A stretch of 64,000 nucleotides of DNA from Parelaphostrongylus tenuis. Lineage: Eukaryota; Nematoda; Chromadorea; Rhabditida; Metastrongylidae. Every line of letters begins with the position of its first letter. Positions within the stretch are counted from its first letter, which is position 1. The stretch spans positions 45,906 through 109,905 of the forward strand of contig JAHQIW010000843.1 in the NCBI GenBank assembly GCA_019055375.1, in the 5' to 3' direction. The notes beneath the pieces are model-generated. The model did no database searches. It was not told where the DNA came from and saw only the letters and a list, made by a program, of their open reading frames with translations. This document shows, one piece after another, positions 3,071 to 61,425 of this stretch. Both the position numbers and the translations under genes were made by a program.

Positions 3071-3707
3071 ATTAAAAAGTCCTGAAGTTTATCGTCTACA
3101 ATAGAGGTGATTTCCCAAGACCGACTATCTATTAACCTCAGCATGCTTCAGTAATTCCTAATTTTCTTCTTTAAGCCAAACACGAGGTGGTGTATGATGA
3201 TTGAGGTGACCGATTGGATTGTAGATAACTTGACCTTTTCAGGGTCTGAAGAAGGCGAACTGCCTGAACGTCACCTGCTGAATAAAGAAATTATCTAAGA
3301 CCTCGTGTTCGGCTTGAAGAAGAAAATAGGATTAGAAAGGTCATTTCTAAACCAGACTACCTGAATAGGTACTGAGGTTCACCTATCTGGGTCGTGACTT
3401 AGTTGCCTCACTACGAATTATCGAGAAATGTGGTAACGTTAAACTACTATAATGGTATTGATGTGCTAAGTAGACAATTTTGAGCGTGTGTACACAGGTG
3501 CTGGCTGTTTTTTATATGCTACTGTACGATTGATGATGTAAAAAGGTTGAAAAACAGATTCGGTTCTTTCTGATAATAAAGAAACAAATGAAACTGATTT
3601 CATTCGCTGTACGCAAACTCTTCATAGGAATGTTAGGTATGATTGGAAAGCTTAGACCTCTGGCTACAGCCCCATGTCGCCCCTTTATAAGGTTGCAGCC
3701 TTCATTT
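3071..3707. repeat. Local direct duplication, copy 1
   Basis: The stretch from TTAAAAAGTCCTGAAGTTTA to the end of the GTCGCCCCTTTATAAGG region is repeated almost base for base starting at about 3706, a period of about 635 bp. Copy 1 contains the uninterrupted site ...ACTCTTCATAGGAATG that is split by a SINE in copy 2. Confidence 0.9.
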
Positions 3708-4257
3708 AAAAGTCCTGAAGTTTATCGTCTACAATAGAGGTGATTTCCTAAGACCGACTATCTATTAACCTCAGCATGCTTCAGTAATTCCTAATTTTCT
3801 TCTTTAAGCCAAACACGAGGTGGTGTATGATGATTGAGGTGACCGACTGGATTGTAGATAACTTGACCTTTTCAGGGTCTGAAGAAGGCGAACTGCCTGA
3901 ACGTCACCTGCTGAATAAAGAAATTATCTAAGACCTCGTGTTCGGCTTGAAGAAGAAAATAGGATTAGAAAGGTCATTTCTAAACCAGACTACCTGAATA
4001 GGTACTGAGGTTCATCTATCTGGGTCGTGACTTAGTTGCCTCACTACGAATTATCGAGAAATGTGGTAACGTTAATCTACTATCAATGGAATTGATGTGC
4101 TAAGTAGACAATTTTGAGCGTGTGTACACAGGTGCTGGCTGTTTTTTATATGCTACTGTACGATTGATAATGGAAAAAGGTTGTAAAACAGAAACTGTTC
4201 TTTCGATTATAAAGGAACAAATGAAGAACTGATTTCTTCGTTGTACATAAACTCTTC
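3708..4257. repeat. Local direct duplication, copy 2 (interrupted by SINE copy B)
   Basis: Second copy of the 635-bp unit, only a few per cent diverged from copy 1. It resumes at 4560 after the SINE. It contains a small inverted repeat around CACGAGGTGGTG/AGACCTCGTGTT, also present in copy 1. Confidence 0.9.
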
Positions 4258-6683: not shown

Positions 6684-8029
6684 CTGAAATCTTAAATAAT
6701 AACAAAAAAAGGCTGGAAAAAAATCCACGTGGCTACAAAAAGACTGCCAAGAGTTATGGAGAAGGAAGGGGGAAGGGGGAGAGCGCAGTGGTTACTGATG
6801 CGTTATATCAGAAAGCAAGCTCCTAAAAAATGGCGCTTATTCTCTGAATAAAGTGGCACTATAGATACTGTAGAGAGTTTCGTTGATACTTTGAGTAGCC
6901 CCCTCTCGATGCTCTGCCTCCTCGTGGTTGGAAGGTGTTCTGGGTGCCGGACTGCGAGATACAGCGGGGTTCAACCCCCAGTAGTGCTCCCAAGCTGGGA
7001 AGGAGTTCGACGTTTTCACTCGGAAAGCCCAGCTGAGAGTATTCCATACCGGCAATCATTGCCACCCTGGTGCGTGGCGACGACTTGAAGAAGGTCCTGG
7101 CTAAGCTGGCGCAGGGACTCCAGGAAACAAAAAAAAAGTTAAACCAGCAAGCATCCATGAGTTTCCAACAAACTTATACGAATAGTGTTGGATAAAGTAG
7201 ATTTAGTTTCGGAAGAAGGCGAAGTCGCCGAAGCTGTCAGATTGAGATACCAAAGCGCAACTGCTAACCAACCTGGCATCTATAACCCTTCAGGGCCATG
7301 GGCTCAACCATCTGTGTCTCCAACTCACAGCGTGCTGCGTCTAACATGGCGCCTAACCCCTAGCGTGCCATTGTTAGCAGCAACACGTCTCATCAGAAAC
7401 AACACGCTGGGGCCAGAGACGCAGAGGGGTTGGGTCCACGGTCTTGAAAGAGTTTAAATTTACGCATTCCAACTATTTCTGCCGAAATTATTCACATTTA
7501 AAAAATCTTAGCTATTCATAGAAATTTTGTCCATAAAATCTATCCCGGATCACCGTGGTCAAGTGTCGTGATGCGCGGCACGGCCACGTTGAGCCGAGTT
7601 CCACTACCAACTCCCTACGGACGCCTTATGGAGCGCCACGGACGACTATCCTCGAGATTGCAAGAAGACTCGCTCATCTACGAGAATGTTCGAAGCCTTG
7701 CCTTAGCGAGGTTTGTTTGAAGGTTGTTCTCATAAATTATACTAAGGGTTTATTGCGAGGTTAAAAAACACTCGATGATGTGGATCAATCTATATCTACC
7801 AGCCGCGATTCATCGACTGAAAATGGTCGTAACACGATGTCATTGTACGTTGTGCTACCACCACATACTTTTCCCCTCTCTTTATACAAAGTAGAGCAAC
7901 TAGGTGTGGGGCGTGGGCCACTGATGAAGAGGGCGATACCGCCTTGAAATACGTGTAAGAATGGATCTGTCGTAACAACCTCAATAAAGCTTTGAACATT
8001 CTAGGTAGACCATGATGAATATTTAGTAT
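6684..8029. other. Repeat-derived stretch upstream of the known lin-9 exons
   Basis: May be lin-9 intron. A tRNA-like head AGAGCGCAGTGGTTACTGATG lies at about 6779-6800, close to the one at about 54298. The stretch 6880-7160 has a tRNA box B-like GGGGTTCAACCCCC but no fold. The plus frame 7185-7457 is open for 90 codons with no recognised product. No lin-9 exon was recognised here. Confidence 0.4.
7755..7945 (+). repeat. Dispersed repeat shared with 63560-63760
   Basis: Segments such as GGTGTGGGGCGTGGGCCACTG, TTGTGCTACCACCAC and ATCTACCAGCC recur in inverted orientation near the right end of the window. No coding potential was recognised. Confidence 0.7.
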
Positions 8030-10960: not shown

Positions 10961-11139
10961 ATCAACTCTCCAGTTCGTACGGATCCGTGTGCCCGTAAGT
11001 GGCGTGGAGCCGCATGATCTTGAGCATTAATATGTTTACAGTAACACAGTAAGCGTTCTGTCCACTGATTTAAAATATGCCTGGTAATCATTATTTGAGC
11101 CACGCATGTCAGTGGTCTGTTAATCAGGGCTGACTTATA

Positions 11140-11185
11140 GAAAACGATACACGTGTTTCGATCTTGCGATCTCGTCAGTTTTTTA
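11140..11185 (-). ncRNA. Hammerhead ribozyme motif, left arm
   Basis: On the minus strand the core CTGACGA (11178-11172) is followed by stem II GATC-GCAA-GATC and GAAA, then ACACGTGT and a U-A cleavage dinucleotide. All core bases match, but stem I is weak (an A-rich strand opposite TCGTTTTC), so activity is uncertain. Confidence 0.6.
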
Positions 11186-11279
11186 CCGGACATAGAGTGT
11201 AAATCGTACGTCGTCGCTAACTCTTATTGTGGGGACTGGAGCACCCACAGAGATTAGCAAAAGACGAGAGAGCGCAACT

Positions 11280-11322
11280 GCCCGACTGACGAGATCGCAA
11301 GATCGACACACGTGTATCGGGC
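11280..11322 (+). ncRNA. Hammerhead ribozyme motif, right arm (one core change)
   Basis: Stem I GCCCGA/TCGGGC pairs perfectly. The core CTGACGA is intact, stem II is GATC-GCAA-GATC, and stem III is ACACGTGT followed by A at the cleavage position. The GAAA core box reads GACA (A14 changed to C), which should impair or abolish cleavage. Confidence 0.7.
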
Positions 11323-11393
11323 TCTATAAGTCAGCCCTCATTAACAGACCACTGACATGCGTGGCTCAAATAATGATTACCAGGCATATTGAA

Positions 11394-46200: not shown

Positions 46201-49200
46201 CAACCACCGTATGAACTGAACAGAAACTCGTTTTACTACTCAATCATATGGTGTTAGCATTTAATGAAGTTGCATAAGTTCCGCAAGAGAAAATATGACC
46301 ATTATCTTTTATTTTAGATATCCTTGGTTCCGAACAACATCCAGAAGTTACGTGGCGATTATAAACTAGGAAACAATGAAATGTTTAGCAAAAAAGTTGT
46401 AGAAACACTGAACGCTAGGTCAGGCCATGGAAACAGAAGTATTTTTGCGTTCCCTCACTAGCCACACACTCTTCATCAACAAAAGTTTCCGCCGAAAATG
46501 AGGAATGACAAGGAGGACACACCTCTCTGGAAGAGATGCAGCTCCACATACGCCTTGGTTAAGCTATTAACCCTTACGGTACTGTGGACTCACGGCCTCT
46601 TCGTCCACGGTCCCTTGAGGGTTATGATTACAAGGAGAGTGGGAAAGAGATTTTGCGCATCAAAATGATCCACGAGGAAAAATAACGCCATAGAGGTCAT
46701 ACCGGCCACTTTGCCCAACCATAAACGACCATCACAGAGACTATGTCGTTACAAATAAAGAACTTGTCCTGCTTCAGGAAAAGTATCTGATGATACTTCT
46801 TTCGCTCTTTTGTTTTGAACTGAACATATGAAACATTCGAAAAAAAAAACAAACATCAGAAGACAACACTTCGACACTGTTGTGGATGTGTTGGATGCAC
46901 TAAGCTCATCTGAAATCAACATTCAAACTCATCATGCCATGCGGATTTTAAGACTCGTAAATAATTTTGAACAGTCCACGCCTGAAGGGCAAGCTGCGAT
47001 ATTATTACGCCACTTTCTTAGGAAGATGAATATCTAGGAAGAAAAGCTGGCCGCCAAGGAATGAGGCTTGAAAAATATTGACATGAAGCAAATTGCTTGA
47101 AAGTTTTGATTAGAATACTGTTCTTACGTGGTGTCTACCTACCCCAGTCTTAGCATCGTCAGTGACAGACTCATTCCATAAGACGATTCTTCTTCAGCAG
47201 TCAGAATCAGCGGTTCTTGCTCTCCAGAAAGGGTCCTCCTGGTGGTTTCGCCAAAACGACGCCGATCGTGTTCCACCTCACAAATCACGACAATCATACA
47301 CAGTCGTGACGACCGCAAAAAATATGACTTCATAGTGCCTTGAAACGTTTGACCAACGAAGACAGTAAATAATTGGTTCAGAAACATTGGCCGCTTCGTA
47401 TGTAATTATGAATTTTACAAGTATTTCGCTTTCAGACACTTAAATACGCCCATATAGCGCGTAGGTATTCACCACTTCGTCAATTCGGGCATATACATAT
47501 ACAACTTAATAATGTACACTCACAATAACTTTGAGTATTTCGAATAAAGCTCGCAAAGTCACAAGTTTGTGTGCGTTCTATTTCACGCGATAAACGCTGC
47601 ACTTACTACCGTAGAAGCGACTCAAAATGATTTCAGACATAATCCAAAAAAATGCATCTGCACTTGATGGTGTTTGAAAAGATACGTCTGAAAAACGTTG
47701 AGCTTTTAATAGCGAAGAAGGTCGTGAACACCAGTTGATTGATCTAATGGAAATAAATATAAAAAAAAACTTTTAAGAAAAAACTTGTCTAAAAAACTCT
47801 TCTACTCAATCTGTGTTATGCCAATGACATCGAAAAAAAAAGAAAAGTTAGGTAAGTGAAGCCACACGAAATCTACAATTTTAAAGAAAAAGACTATAGC
47901 TACAAAATGTGTTAAAAACTTTTTTTCGACGATACAAATGGGCCTCCTTCTTCGAGGGCGTCGTAAGTAGGAATGAAAATCGAGGCTGGTCGAGGATTGT
48001 CGTTGTATTACTCATTCAAATCAACATGGAGGTCATAACGCCAATTTAAGGGCAAAATTTCACCGAAGGAAGTGTCCCGAAATCTAGTCAGCCTGTTATG
48101 GATAAAACAGATTTTATAATTACGGCCAATAAGATTTGAAAAGTGAGTTTGATTTAGACGAATAATCATGTTCATTTGAAATAAACTGTAGAATGTCACT
48201 GATTACTTCGGAAATCAGCCTATGTTCGTGCACCAGTCATAAACGAAAGACACTTATCAAAGTCTCATGTCTGGTCAAGGCCACTCAAAGTTCTCAATAT
48301 TCGAAACTATTAGGTTTGAGATGTCAATAACTTCAGTACTAGTGAGATAATTGTTCAACAAATTCGCCAAAGTCCTACTGCACTGAGATAGAATCTCATC
48401 TTAGAATAGAATCTCATAGAACTTTTACCTTTGAACATATATTCAATCAGAAATGATTACAAGAAAAATGAAATGATTATAACTATAGTAACTCTTGCTT
48501 ATTCGATCATTTTAACATGAGGTTTTACATCATGCGGTGCTTCAAAATAAAAACTCATGCAGTGGGCCTTAGGGCACAGAAAGATAAAATACTCTACATG
48601 CATAGTTGGTGGTTTCGTGGAAACTTCTTTTCAGTAAAACTACGACCTCGTATTTTGTGACGCATACAGAAATACAACTAAGGCCTACACACACTAGCCA
48701 ATCCTACAACCAAAATGTGCATTAGCTTGTAAAGTAAAGTAAAGCTTGCATAATAAAAGTGCAACAACAAAAATCTACCACCTATATAAGAAAGTTATTC
48801 ATCCCAAAAATAACCCATTTGCTTCGATACCTTACCTAAGGCCATTATCGGACATGTAGGGTTGTTGCAAAAAATGAAACATTCAAAACATTGGTTCATT
48901 CAAAACAAACAAAATTTTGAGCGGGTCTGTAAAAAAGCAGTCGATAGCTTAAGTATAGTTCATTTTAAAAGCCGTAAGCTCGACTGCCGGTCACCACAAA
49001 GTCAGGTAATACCATCATCCTACTTTGGGTGCTTAATTTTAGTCGGCGTCGGTTCCTTTAGAGGATTATTTCACCTCAAGGGATCGACGGAACCGAGGGA
49101 GGGTGCTACTGATGAGTCCCAATAGGACGAAATAGGCGCCTATATAGCACTAGACCTATGGCTCAAAATATGTCATATCCTTATCAGATTAAATCATTTT

Positions 49201-51191
49201 GAGCGGGTCCTGTAAAAAAGCAGTCGATAGCAGAAGTATAGTTCATTTTAAAAGCCGTAAGCTCGACTGCCGGTCACCACAAAGTCAGGTAATACCATCA
49301 TCCTACTTGTGGTGTGCTTAATTTTACTCGGCGTCGGTTCCTTTAGAGGATTATTTCACCTCAAAGGATCGACGGAACCGAGGGAGGATGCTACTGATGA
49401 GTCCCAATAGGACGAAATAGGCGCCTATATAGCACTAGACCTATGGCTCAAATATTGTCATATCCTTATCAGATTAAAACATTCAAAACAGTTTTCAAAA
49501 TTATTCTAACACACAAGCATTGAGGTGAAGGCTTCAGAAAACTGTTGGCCTATATTTCACATTAGATTTGCGAAAGATAACGAGATAACCAAAAGCTGAG
49601 TTTCCACGAATCCAGAGATAGGTAACCAAGAAAAATCTATCAGCGTCAGGCGATTGAAAGCAGCTAGTGTTTAGTGACTAAGCAGGAATTAAGCAGCAAG
49701 AAATATGATAACTAGGCAAACATTATGTAAACAGCAAAGCAACCTATCCATTGATCAGAATTGTGAATATGGAATGAAAGCAGCGACTACGCGAGATATA
49801 AATAACTGAGCAACAATTACCTCTTCGAAGAATGTTTGCGTTTTTCTGAGAATGTGCTTCAATTCCGTTAATTCTGCGAAGTTTTTCCTTAGCGTTTCTT
49901 CGTTTCCGATTTACTTCACGTAATTCATTCTCCAATTTCTCAAAGGTTGCCTAGAACAACAACAACAACAACGAAATCCTCAAAAGAAAAAACTACGCGT
50001 CGAGTGATATGATCATACCTCTAGATCAATCATTTCCCTCGGTTGTGGAGCGTCAGGATTCTCACCTGTATCCAACATTGGTATTTGGTCCTTCTTGATC
50101 TCCCTCTCCAGATATCCTGTATCGACAAATTTTCATTAGATTTCCCACAACCTTCACTTCTACGTTAACAATCATTTGTGGGCGGGTGATAGTGACCTAC
50201 ACCTAATTACTGATAGTGTCTTAACCCCTAAGGGACTCGTGGCACCCAGCTGATATACACGATTGTCGGAGGGCTTTCTCGCTGAACAATTTCCTCTTAG
50301 ATACTTGGTAACCATTTGAAAGCTTAAATCTCAGCGATTTCAACGATGTGTTTAATTTCTGTAAAGTCTTTTGATGCATTGTAGCAGCGAAAATAAAATT
50401 AGGTTTCACACTCAGTTTGCTTTATTTGCTCGGCTCGGGCTTGTATAAAGCTTCTCGCGAAACTCTTACTAGTCATTCAATGGCCCAAATCTCGAGGATT
50501 TTGATGCTGCAATTGATTTTTCGCAAGGTTATCAAAGAGCGCTGTAAAAGCGGAAATGAAGATTACGTTTCCTACTCAGAGTTTTTATTGTACAGAAAAG
50601 GTTATATATGCACGTAAGACGTATGACCATGTAGAGAAAATTATGGAGTATCAGAGCATCACAAAAAACCCAGAGTTTTGCTTTCCAAATGGAGGAAAAA
50701 CCCTAGTTCAACAACGAAAATCGCGCGCCTATTGTTGCAAGTTGCGCAGCGCGATCGATCACCTGCCGTCCCCAAAGGGTTATCACCTTTATATGGTGTC
50801 CAAAAAAGTTCACCTGAGGGCTGATATAAACAAATTTGATTACTGAGCACATCAAGAGAAAATCCTCAAACGCAATAACAAACCAGCTCTATATAATCTA
50901 TAGAAACTCACGCAGTTTTCTTTTCCATTTCATCGCATCGGCGTACCTCATTGACATATTTGCGTTGAAACGAACTCGTATCTGGATTCAACTAAAACCA
51001 TAGATAATTCTGCTCGCTAGTTATGGTGCTTCAAAATCTCCTATTGCTCTTACATCTCTGAATTGTACAAGTCCTAGTTCACCCAGTTCAGCAACACATT
51101 GATAAGCAGCCTCAGACTGGAGGAATAGCTGTGCGAGCGTCATCTGCTCGCTTCGATAAATCCCAGGTTGGTCTGGCTCTGGCTCGAACAT
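27130..51191 (-). CDS. unc-32: V-type H+-ATPase subunit a (UNC-32 orthologue)
   Basis: Membrane (V0) subunit a, which with the c-ring carries protons across vesicle and vacuolar membranes. Exons: 51054-51191, 50912-50991, 50019-50116, 49821-49950, linker exon (three choices), 44572-44698, 43120-43201, 39290-39422, 39117-39215, 37970-38045, 37759-37909, 37485-37624, 37222-37430, 36955-37112, 36021-36140, 35737-35898, membrane exon (two choices), 30027-30128, 29117-29234, 27713-27884, 27130-27235. About 887 residues. Landmarks: [68 protein letters not shown], and [20 protein letters not shown] with the essential transport arginine (Vph1 R735 equivalent). The stop follows [10 protein letters not shown]. 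Six exons each need one base added or removed in a homopolymer. Paralogues vha-5, vha-6 and vha-7 are possible, but tpk-1 next door and the two exclusive-exon clusters favour unc-32. Confidence 0.95.
27262..27556. repeat. (TA)n-rich microsatellite, last intron of unc-32
   Basis: Long TATATA tracts broken by TACATG/TGCATA variants between the last two coding exons. The Tyr/Ile-rich open frames here on both strands come from the repeat. Confidence 0.95.
29312..29663. mobile_element. Foldback element with two convergent tRNA-like halves (unc-32 intron)
   Basis: The left half on the minus strand has GAGTTTCGAGTCCCGCCTGA, the right half on the plus strand GCGGGTTCAAGTCTCGCTTG. Their outer ends AAAACTTTTTGCGTCAGG and CTTGCCAGAAAGTTTT are inverted relatives. 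A minus-strand relative is at 60570-60720. Confidence 0.65.
31120..31480. repeat. (TA)n/(TATG)n microsatellite, unc-32 intron
   Basis: About 360 bp of TATATA, TATGTA and CATATA tracts; the open frames here are artefacts of the repeat. Confidence 0.95.
31895..32727. mobile_element. Foldback/MITE element C (unc-32 intron)
   Basis: Left arm TAGGAGTGTTAGTAACCTTT and AAGCTTAAATC; right arm GAACTTTCGAATGATTATTA and TTTTTGTCCAGCGAATGAGG. Same family as element A. Confidence 0.7.
33000..33128 (-). CDS. unc-32: unc-32 alternative membrane exon, second copy
   Basis: 129 nt, acceptor GCTTTTCAG, donor GTCCGT, phase 0 in and out. Reads [20 protein letters not shown] then [20 protein letters not shown], and joins [15 protein letters not shown] in the exon at 30128. 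Confidence 0.9.
33334..33456 (-). CDS. unc-32: unc-32 alternative membrane exon, first copy
   Basis: 123 nt, acceptor CGATCTTAG, donor GTTAGT, phase 0 in and out. Reads [20 protein letters not shown] then [20 protein letters not shown]. It is homologous to the exon at 33000-33128: hydrophobic helix, VPxMLFxKP, then a charged tail. Splicing both in would duplicate a transmembrane helix, so they should be mutually exclusive (C. elegans exons 7a/7b). Confidence 0.9.
33843..34820 (+). pseudogene. Mariner-like transposase pseudogene (unc-32 intron)
   Basis: Pieces in order: an N-terminal DNA-binding part in broken frames (33843-34090), then [55 protein letters not shown] and [16 protein letters not shown], which follow the catalytic domain of Tc1/mariner transposases. 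Frameshifts near 34090 and 34200. Inserted opposite to the host gene. Confidence 0.85.
35150..35500 (-). pseudogene. RTE-like LINE reverse transcriptase fragment (unc-32 intron)
   Basis: Minus-strand pieces [15 protein letters not shown] and, one frame away, [18 protein letters not shown] match the FxDLEKAFDRVPxE motif of RTE-type reverse transcriptases. Confidence 0.65.
36095..36101 (-). other. Apparent -1 base in unc-32 exon 15
   Basis: FMFIP is followed by AAA TAA. Adding one C (or A) to CCCCAAA restores [16 protein letters not shown]. Confidence 0.92.
36225..36900. repeat. Dispersed-repeat units (unc-32 intron)
   Basis: Blocks TCGTTCAATAGCCCGAATCT, TAATAGAGCGCTACTAGAGC and CATGTTTCACACTC. 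The stretch opens and closes with a short inverted repeat, TCTTCTCATAAGTTTTGGC and CACAACTTATGAGAAGA. Confidence 0.6.
37377..37386 (-). other. Apparent -1 base in unc-32 exon 13
   Basis: RYVIFLMG must continue (A/L)[16 protein letters not shown]. The run GGGGCTTTTT lacks one G or one T. The rest of the exon, 209 nt, is clean. Confidence 0.92.
37990..37993 (-). other. Apparent +1 A in unc-32 exon 10
   Basis: CAAAATGG should be CAAATGG: ELETYQ then MALKRGT, joining [14 protein letters not shown] in the next exon. Confidence 0.92.
38095..39060. repeat. Array of diverged dispersed-repeat units (unc-32 intron)
   Basis: At least four units, each with a CTGTA(A/G)(C/G)AG(C/T)C block (38230, 38340, 38517, 38653; spacing about 110-180 bp), a CAAATCT...GATTTCAATGATG block and a TCACACTCG-like block. 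Confidence 0.65.
39545..39785 (-). mobile_element. tRNA-derived SINE, copy D (unc-32 intron)
   Basis: Minus-strand copy: CGGTGGTTAGTGGTTCGAAC head, CGGGGTCGGTGATTTGGTAC body, CATGGCGCATCCCTCAGG and TTGATCAACACC at the 3' end. Diverged from copies B and E. Confidence 0.85.
40440..40760. repeat. Dispersed-repeat units (unc-32 intron)
   Basis: Units with CATTTGATAGCCCAAATCTC, CACAAAGCGCTGTAAAAAGC and CATTTCACGCCC blocks. Confidence 0.6.
41110..42075. repeat. Dispersed-repeat cluster with GC-rich hairpin (unc-32 intron)
   Basis: Contains at 41475-41550 CACTCGGCTCCGTGTCGACC...GCGCGCCGAGTG, the close relative of the hairpin at 14442-14495, again between inverted unit arms. Confidence 0.65.
43184..43186 (-). 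other. Apparent -1 A in unc-32 exon 7
   Basis: AATAAACGGTC should be AATAAAACGGTC: GEPVNK then [20 protein letters not shown]. As it stands the frame gives [10 protein letters not shown]. Confidence 0.92.
44939..45030 (-). CDS. unc-32: unc-32 alternative linker exon C
   Basis: 92 nt, acceptor GGTTCTATAG, donor GTATGC, phase 0 in and phase 2 out. Reads [18 protein letters not shown] and ends APLKVQLR, joining FVAGVI. It is the shortest of the three alternatives and lies only 240 bp before the constitutive exon at 44698. Confidence 0.85.
45507..45616 (-). CDS. unc-32: unc-32 alternative linker exon B
   Basis: 110 nt, acceptor TCAACACAG, phase 0 in and phase 2 out like its alternatives. Reads [18 protein letters not shown], then an Ala/Pro/Thr-rich part ending TGPLFHNFG. 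The donor is the weak GTTGGT. An acidic, flexible linker would replace that of exon A. Confidence 0.75.
47143..47276 (-). CDS. unc-32: unc-32 alternative linker exon A
   Basis: 134 nt, enters in phase 0 after FFEE and leaves in phase 2. Reads [20 protein letters not shown] onward and ends SLTMLRLG, joining [12 protein letters not shown] in the exon at 44698. Acceptor GTGAG, donor GTAGGT. Corresponds in place to one of C. elegans exons 4A-4C. Confidence 0.85.
49103..49150 (+). ncRNA. Type I hammerhead ribozyme, unit 1
   Basis: Stem I GTGCTA/TAGCAC; core CTGATGA (49109-49115); stem II GTCC-CAATA-GGAC; core GAA with A-U closing pair; stem III ATAG-GCGC-CTAT; A at the cleavage position (49144). 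Every conserved core base is present. Confidence 0.88.
49389..49434 (+). ncRNA. Type I hammerhead ribozyme, unit 2
   Basis: Same core, stem II and stem III as unit 1. Stem I is one pair shorter (TGCTA/TAGCA). Predicted cleavage after 49429. Confidence 0.87.
49903..49905 (-). other. Apparent +1 A in unc-32 exon 4
   Basis: The frame reads ENELREVNR, then shifts at CGGAAACG. With one A removed it continues [20 protein letters not shown] to FFEE, the conserved sequence. Confidence 0.92.
50275..50830. repeat. Dispersed-repeat units (unc-32 intron)
   Basis: Units with GAAAGCTTAAATCTCAGCGA, TTGATGCATTGTAGCAGCG and GGTTTCACACTCAGTTTGCT blocks. Confidence 0.6.
50916..50919 (-). other. Apparent +1 A in unc-32 exon 2
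   Basis: The exon must end KKLR to join [12 protein letters not shown], but an extra A in AAAAGAAAAC gives KKT and a phase error. The donor GTGAGT is intact. Confidence 0.85.
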
Positions 51192-53204: not shown

Positions 53205-53800
53205 ATATACCTCATGATTATTATTTGCGCCAACATGTCATGTGGTCTATTAATGGGCCCCTGTACAGCCGATATATGTGGTTCGGCCTCGCGGCCTCTT
53301 CAGTAGGGCAGACCCTTAGCCTTTAGCCAATCCTCCGGGAGCCCCTATATCTCCCTATAAAGAGGTAGGCGGCGACGAACAATTTACGCAATCGCGGTCA
53401 AGTGAAAGATCACATGATCGGTAATTTCGAGATTCGATTGCATTTGGCTGGTGTTTTTGAAATTTATGAGACATATTGAAATTTGGTGTGGTCCTAATAG
53501 CACTCGAAATAAACGCTATATATTTCAAAAATACCGGTTAAGAGCAGTCGTGTGTCGAAAATTGCCGATTTTGTGATTTTTCACTTGACGGCGATTAATT
53601 ATGTAAAGCGTTCGTCGACGCATACCTCTTTGTAGGGGGATGTAGGAGCACCCGAGAGGAGCACTGGCTAAAGACGAAGGGCTTGTCCGACTGACGAGGC
53701 TGCAAGGCCGAAACACGTGCGTGTATCGGGCTGTACAGAAGCCCTTTAACAGGTCACATGACATGCTGACTCAATAACTATGAGATATCTCAGGATAATC
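53205..53800. mobile_element. Foldback element with hammerhead motifs in both arms
   Basis: The left arm (CATGTCATGTGGTCTATTAA, CCCTGTACAGCCGATATATG, CCTCTTCAGTAGGGCAG) and the right arm (53650-53800) are inverted relatives. Inner parts also pair (TATAAAGAGGTAGGCGGCGA with TCGACGCATACCTCTTTGTA). The right arm carries an intact hammerhead. The left arm, on the minus strand, carries a decayed one (CTGAAGA, stem II GGCC-GCGA-GGCC, then GAAC). Confidence 0.8.
53685..53731 (+). ncRNA. Type I hammerhead ribozyme with complete core
   Basis: Stem I GTCCGA/TCGGGC (one G-U pair), extended further out by GGGCTT/AAGCCC; core CTGACGA (53691-53697); stem II GGCT-GCAA-GGCC; GAAA; stem III ACAC-GTGC-GTGT; A at the cleavage site (53725). 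All conserved bases present. Confidence 0.9.
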
Positions 53801-60720: not shown

Positions 60721-61054
60721 TTCTTATCTAACCGCTATCCATAGCAACGCTAGAAAGCGGTTGAATGAAAAAAATCTTGTCTTTAAGATGTAATTTGTCT
60801 ATCAATCTAAACATTTTCGGGATACATATGGATCAAACCGTCATTATGCTGACTACTTTTATTTTTCTCAATAATAAAACGACAGATAGGTCACCGGTTG
60901 GCGCTGCCCAGCACCACAAACGTGTTCGTTCGTTGGAACCTGCTCGCCCTCGAAGACAACGAGCCTTTCATATCTCCGAGGTGGCCGAAATGGTACCAGA
61001 ATACCCTAGTCTCGACCGATTATGTGGACCTCGCTCAAAACAGTGAAAGCCTGA

Positions 61055-61425
61055 TAACATTATAACATGTTTGAGCCTGTTATGAGGTCTGATAAGGGTA
61101 CTTATACAGTGCTTAACAGGCGCATGTTTCGCCCTTCCGGATCCCAGTTTCCTTCGGTTCAGCCGACCCCTTGGGGACATACCCCTATATAAAGAAATCG
61201 ACGCCGAAGAGTAGACTGCGCAAGTCAAGTGACAAAATCCCCTGACTCCAGTGCCCACAGTCGAGTGCTAGCGGCTGCGGCATATCCCCAAAGGATCTGT
61301 TGAACCGAGGGAGACTGTGCTACTAAGAAGTCCGGAAGGACGAAACCCGCGTTTGTCCAGCATTATATGTGCCCTTATCAGACCTGATAGTAGGCTGAAA
61401 CATGTTGATATGGCACCAGAACTAC
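61055..61425. mobile_element. Foldback element with decayed hammerhead motifs
   Basis: The left arm (ACATGTTTGAGCCTGTTATG, AGGTCTGATAAGGGTACTTA, CTTCGGTTCAGCCGACCCCT) and the right arm (TTGAACCGAGGGAG, CCCTTATCAGACCTGATAG) are inverted over about 150 bp. On the plus strand the right arm keeps stem II GTCC-GGAA-GGAC and GAAA, but the core CTGATGA has become CTAAGAA. The left arm keeps only CCGGAAGGGCGAAAC on the minus strand. Confidence 0.75.

Follow-up and report, generated by a model that had tools for sequence, protein, structure and literature searches.

Head-to-head arrays of a retrozyme in Parelaphostrongylus tenuis suggest insertion by Penelope-like elements from both sides of a cut target

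A tandem repeat pair in the nematode Parelaphostrongylus tenuis is one copy of a new retrozyme family, which is abundant in this genome and predicted to be self-cleaving. Most sampled copies are head-to-head arrays with two different fixed ends, and the Penelope-like elements (PLEs) of the same genome follow the same plan. This array layout suggests that insertion is by PLEs, which would copy a circular RNA starting from each side of the cut target. The copy described here is probably a metazoan non-LTR retrozyme, non-autonomous and mobilised by PLEs through two-sided priming on circular RNA. It lies in a 64,000-nt stretch of contig JAHQIW010000843.1 (assembly GCA_019055375.1, positions 45,906 to 109,905), referred to as the window, and is itself the minority form of the family, with both units in a single orientation.

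The first-pass annotation had reported two direct repeats of ~285 nt, and these are borne out by TRF (48914-49483, period 285, 2.0 copies, 96% matches); the two units are 95.8% identical across 288 columns. The span first given, 48905..49490, does hold an insertion, with bounds that now fall at 48908-49479 and 11-bp target site duplications (TSDs) flanking it. The features are as follows.

48897..48907, no strand: left TSD, CATTCAAAACA; direct repeat present at both ends
48908..49479, + strand: retrozyme insertion (locus L048), two co-oriented 285-nt units; from TRF and circle mapping, 52 to 54, 2.00 units
49093..49161, + strand: hammerhead 1, outer stem I included; core from 49109, predicted cut 49144|49145; from Rfam and descriptor
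49378..49446, + strand: hammerhead 2; core from 49394, predicted cut 49429|49430; from Rfam and descriptor
49145..49429, + strand: predicted 285-nt monomer between the predicted cut sites (circle nt 1-285)
49161..49204, + strand: predicted stem-loop A (circle 17-60), from the fold
49179-49190, + strand: putative reverse transcription (RT) start site A (circle 35-46), from end mapping across the family
49220..49270, + strand: predicted stem-loop B (circle 76-126), from the fold
49231-49245, + strand: putative RT start site B (circle 87-101), from end mapping across the family
49480..49490, no strand: right TSD, CATTCAAAACA; direct repeat present at both ends

A strict hammerhead descriptor, which calls for the full core, stems I-III and a U preceding the cleavage base, finds three sites on the two strands of the window (49109, 49394 and 53691) and none in 150 dinucleotide shuffles. 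Each unit carries the full type I core that had been claimed for it, with stem I open and stem III closed, and the predicted cuts are spaced 285 nt apart, also as claimed. The claim of matched stems is only partly true of hammerhead 2, because its stem I has one non-standard pair where hammerhead 1 has G-C. The covariance-model check that the annotation had proposed finds both units with Rfam Hammerhead_1, at 49103-49150 (29.5 bits) and 49388-49435 (24.3 bits), both lower than the curated cut-off of 34. The respective E values are 4.3e-5 and 0.0022 over an 801-nt stretch and 0.0034 and 0.18 over the whole window. At the gathering threshold, Rfam gives no match in the whole window or in the long array L047, and the curated hammerhead cut-off is passed at 20 other places in the genome. 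A search of viral contigs for the hammerhead core pattern gave no match.

The unit has a GC content of 43% and the circle holds no ATG open reading frame (ORF) of more than 20 aa. The predicted circular fold of the 285-nt monomer has an energy of -78.0 kcal/mol (z -3.4; 0/200 shuffles as low). The retrozyme-like reading of the annotation agrees with the published description: metazoan non-LTR retrozymes, in the available text of PMC7229834, have a type I hammerhead, direct tandem units in the 170-400 nt range (taken as 150-450 bp for the test made here), GC below 50%, no ORF and a TSD of more than 4 bp. The family shows these metazoan features. The accessible text of that source names no nematodes among retrozyme phyla, and the string 'nematod' is absent from it. 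Plant LTR retrozymes are likewise hammerhead-bearing, non-coding and multimeric, but are described in the excerpts available (PMC7229834, PMC7761336) as having type III hammerheads, LTRs, ~700 nt between hammerheads and a 4-bp TSD. Type I topology and the 11-bp TSD rule out this class for the window copy. It is not a PLE itself, as the unit has no ORF for RT or GIY-YIG.

The insertion sits in an intron of V-ATPase subunit a, between exons near 50.9k and 39.3k. Its intron location and antisense orientation, proposed earlier, hold up: exons on the - strand (near 51.1k, 50.9k, 39.3k, 37.8k, 37.6k and 27.6k) flank an insertion on the + strand. The exons were assigned from two Pfam matches, one comparison to solved structures and motifs that we take to be those of subunit a, through which most were recognised. 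At 27.2-27.6k and 31.1-31.5k, TA-rich microsatellites gave many sub-threshold microRNA matches in a permissive Rfam scan, taken as chance.

The annotation had named a lack of further genomic copies as a point against its reading; the 285-nt unit instead gave 1720 first-look candidates in the 481.5-Mb genome (5105 contigs). Scoring 40 of these, in a ranking biased toward copies near the query sequence, gave 208 matches. From among the matches listed, 40 loci (L009-L048) were grouped by eye. Three (L028, L029 and L031) were removed as duplicates of L023, whose TSD they carry reverse-complemented, leaving 37 distinct loci. Near position 5893 of L047, beside the retrozyme array, is a 15-nt match to what we take to be the nematode spliced-leader core.

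Metazoan non-LTR retrozymes are described as direct tandem repeats (PMC7229834, as far as its available text goes), whereas in this family 32 of the 37 distinct loci are head-to-head arrays in the (-..+) order. None has the (+..-) order and five have a single orientation. Circle positions are numbered from the predicted cut site, and outer ends were trimmed by the TSD. The outer ends cluster in two groups, A (n=25, circle 35-46, median 41) and B (n=21, circle 87-101, median 92). Among the 32 two-armed loci, 25 are AB, and the seven that run counter to this plan comprise one AA, one BB, three with A and another end, one with B and another end, and one with two other ends. The single-orientation loci L016, L018, L037, L045 and L048 have 3' ends at 38, 89, 89, 40 and 50, the last, that of the window copy, lying one base beyond the trained A range.

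Because the first A and B ranges were drawn from the same loci that they class, a split-half check was run in which 16 loci set the ranges and the other 16 were tested. In the tested loci, 26/32 ends fell within the ranges, with 12.6% expected. The classes were AB 10, AA 1, A-other 3, B-other 1 and other-other 1, so that AB accounts for 10 of the 11 decided loci. In the predicted fold, loops hold both start sites (mean unpaired probability 0.63 and 0.71 versus 0.42 overall).

Flanking direct repeats reach 10 nt or more at 28/38 non-edge loci (the three duplicates included) versus 21/1406 control pairs, six of those 21 being 15-nt pairs. A TSD of 8-16 nt that is consistent with the boundaries was found in 24/30 two-armed non-edge loci, 12 nt being the commonest length; 6/30 are without one.

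The PLEs of this genome are built in the same way. Searching for GIY-YIG domains gave 1723 first-look candidates, of which 150 were scored; among the matches listed, all were over the cut-off. RVT_1 and GIY-YIG occur together in one open frame of this genome. Neighbouring GIY-YIG domains within 6 kb, counted by eye among the matches listed, are arranged (-+) in 20 cases, (+-) in none, and (--) and (++) in one each; one more (-+) pair, more than 11 kb apart, was excluded from the count. For the outer ends alone of the 20 (-+) pairs, with classes assigned by eye, 16 pairs were resolved and all 16 have one A end and one tailed (B) end, with a tail of ~45 nt. The flanking repeats of these 16 pairs are 8-14 nt long, mostly 12, and reach at least 12 nt in 14/16 (control 1/380). 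The remaining pairs (L079/L080, L105/L106, L107/L108 and L109/L110) gave no resolution, the 12-nt match of L109/L110 falling within an element. Among longer two-armed PLE loci, L065 and L052 combine an A end with a tailed end and have repeats of 12 and 14 nt, L060 has a 12-nt repeat with its left end inside an element, and L061 is A/tailed in appearance with a best repeat of 6 nt.

A minimal hammerhead is present at PLE 3' ends. The plan common to the retrozyme and the PLEs thus consists of head-to-head arms, one untailed and one tailed end separated by 45-51 nt, and a stagger close to 12 nt. The ends themselves did not align significantly in sequence, either with those of seven PLE loci (69 to 849 of 1000 shuffles as good) or with those of a second PLE family at four loci (141 to 333 of 1000), and an end sequence match was rejected as evidence. 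The heptamer of one PLE family's site A occurs once in the retrozyme circle, at A. Folding of four loci gave no support for a stem-loop around PLE site A. Within the window, the main PLE family is represented by two pieces in head-to-head order, at 3112-3331 and 3745-3964, with the tailed end left and the A end right; this pair repeats at a spacing of 633 nt. In L069, at ~1186-1272, a PLE-like tailed end (by eye) and a diverged retrozyme arm are separated by ~150 nt and may form a composite insertion.

PLEs have been called 'a strong candidate' for mobilising metazoan retrozymes, a proposal that the available text of PMC7229834 bases on shared hammerheads, tandem copies and co-occurrence; a 2024 review, in the part available, gives 'LINEs or Penelope-like' (PMC11722881). 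Inverted PLE copies, tailed at one end and flanked by TSDs, were already known (PMC3846280, in extract). The endonuclease-containing PLEs of that source, like those described here, match the retrozyme in their head-to-head inverted copies, the optional tail at one inverted end, the TSD and a hammerhead near the 3' end. They differ in encoding RT and GIY-YIG, the retrozyme unit being non-coding. Excerpts of PMC11167929 describe an Anolis PLE that cuts and extends both target strands in vitro; RT starts within a stem-loop, and its two start sites delimit the tail, which is how we picture retrozyme insertion. Two observations in that system count against our reading: no difference in start site was seen between strands, and insertion did not need ribozyme cleavage. 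The RNA there was linear and unprocessed, and the retrozyme, seen in genomic copies only, has one A and one B end.

We propose that tandem retrozyme DNA would be transcribed, that the hammerheads would cleave the transcript, and that the 285-nt monomer RNA would close into a circle. A PLE enzyme would cut both target strands with a stagger of ~12 nt, and each free target 3' end would prime RT on the retrozyme RNA, with stem-loop A used by one end and stem-loop B by the other. Both cDNAs would circle round the template, often beyond one turn, and be joined at a variable point. This would leave a head-to-head (-)(+) array with start sites A and B at its two extremities, flanked by a TSD of ~12 nt. 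We are evenly divided on whether a single circular RNA is primed simultaneously at A and B, with two reverse transcriptases rolling round it until the cDNAs meet. The array would then be the normal Penelope-type product, and retrozymes would be parasites with a minimal Penelope-type start-site pair.

The A/B plan in retrozymes and PLEs of one genome provides structural evidence for PLE mobilisation, and it is a fingerprint that can be searched for in any assembled genome. Two-sided priming also offers an alternative account of inverted PLE copies, which were attributed in 2013 to self-priming on antisense RNA (PMC3846280, in the extract available). The retrozyme data would unite the published PLE facts, in that an insertion has a start site at either end, usually not the same one. 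We found no counterpart to this insertion plan in the open-licence PMC literature searched. Those searches returned no account of retrozymes in head-to-head arrays, nothing linking twin priming to hammerheads and nothing on Penelope/Nematis retrotransposons in nematodes. Judged by the listings, Penelope with twin priming gave unrelated papers only, and nematode hammerhead retrozymes gave one paper, also unrelated.

The arms bear on the nature of the template. Judged by length, every one of the 46 arms at 23 AB loci passes the cut site, and in 36/37 loci at least one arm is longer than one unit (both arms in eight), so the template was either ligated across the cut site or left uncut. The B arm is longer than the A arm in 17/23 AB loci. 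Within a locus the arms come from like templates, with 1.4% divergence versus 2.2% between loci (0/2000 permutations as low). Subfamily markers are concordant between arms in 76/84 comparisons; the eight discords, confined to five loci, indicate that some arms derive from different molecules.

These arms leave room for a different template, in which PLE two-sided insertion copied an uncut multimer transcribed from an array already in place, and circle and ribozyme were irrelevant. We regard this as unlikely. It accommodates arms that run past the cut site, and a PLE does take unprocessed RNA in vitro (PMC11167929, in the excerpts available). Arm likeness is compatible with it too, because source arrays are homogeneous. 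Against it, the hammerhead core is intact in 129/135 units, and the hammerhead region has 27 changes where 52 are expected (p 0.002 once two end zones are excluded). Yet 18/285 windows of equal size are quieter than the hammerhead region, and taken by themselves the core positions are no quieter than random position sets (p 0.14), making the evidence from hammerhead conservation mixed. The 17.8 units of L047 also speak against an uncut multimer, as all 18 copies, over both arms, have four non-consensus variants in common, of which three are subfamily markers.

Inverted arms can also arise in LINE-type retrotransposition. Twin priming likewise yields head-to-head copies with TSDs. We nevertheless give this origin very little weight, since the outer ends fall on two fixed start sites, A and B, the retrozyme ends listed have no poly(A) tail, and the plan is common to the PLEs of this genome.

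A second retrozyme family (query L070; 3186 first-look candidates, 40 scored) was sampled at 19 distinct loci within L111-L130; L124 was left out as a repeat of L114, and L111 is the locus of the query itself. A tail was detected at exactly one end in 15 loci, at neither in four and at both in none. Flanking repeats of at least 10 nt occur in 2/19 (control 1/342), hardly above control. The junction sequences vary between copies. A viroid-like reading of this family and of the window element 11074-11390, from palindromes and ribozymes in both polarities, was set aside because the differing junctions of the second family better fit separate two-sided insertions; it may still hold for 11074-11390. 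Satellite DNA or a foldback DNA transposon, its arms being terminal inverted repeats spread by recombination or a transposase, would give tandem arrays with inverted arms, and second-family copies do resemble foldback elements of ~420 bp, but this origin for the main family is scarcely credible when its two ends are unlike (A versus B), TSD length varies from 8 to 16 nt and inner junctions vary among copies.

The window holds further elements. Two related inverted-repeat elements, at 11074-11390 and 53225-53774, carry hammerhead motifs in their arms (+11286, with one core mismatch, -11178, and +53691, with the full core); the two have sequence in common at their outer ends, one end being the longer. 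An inverted-repeat relative of the retrozyme, at 61051-61419, is 75% identical over 61 nt and has a decayed hammerhead. Two related short elements, at 7860-7990 (+) and 63764-63500 (-), have hammerhead-like cores at 7921 and -63591.
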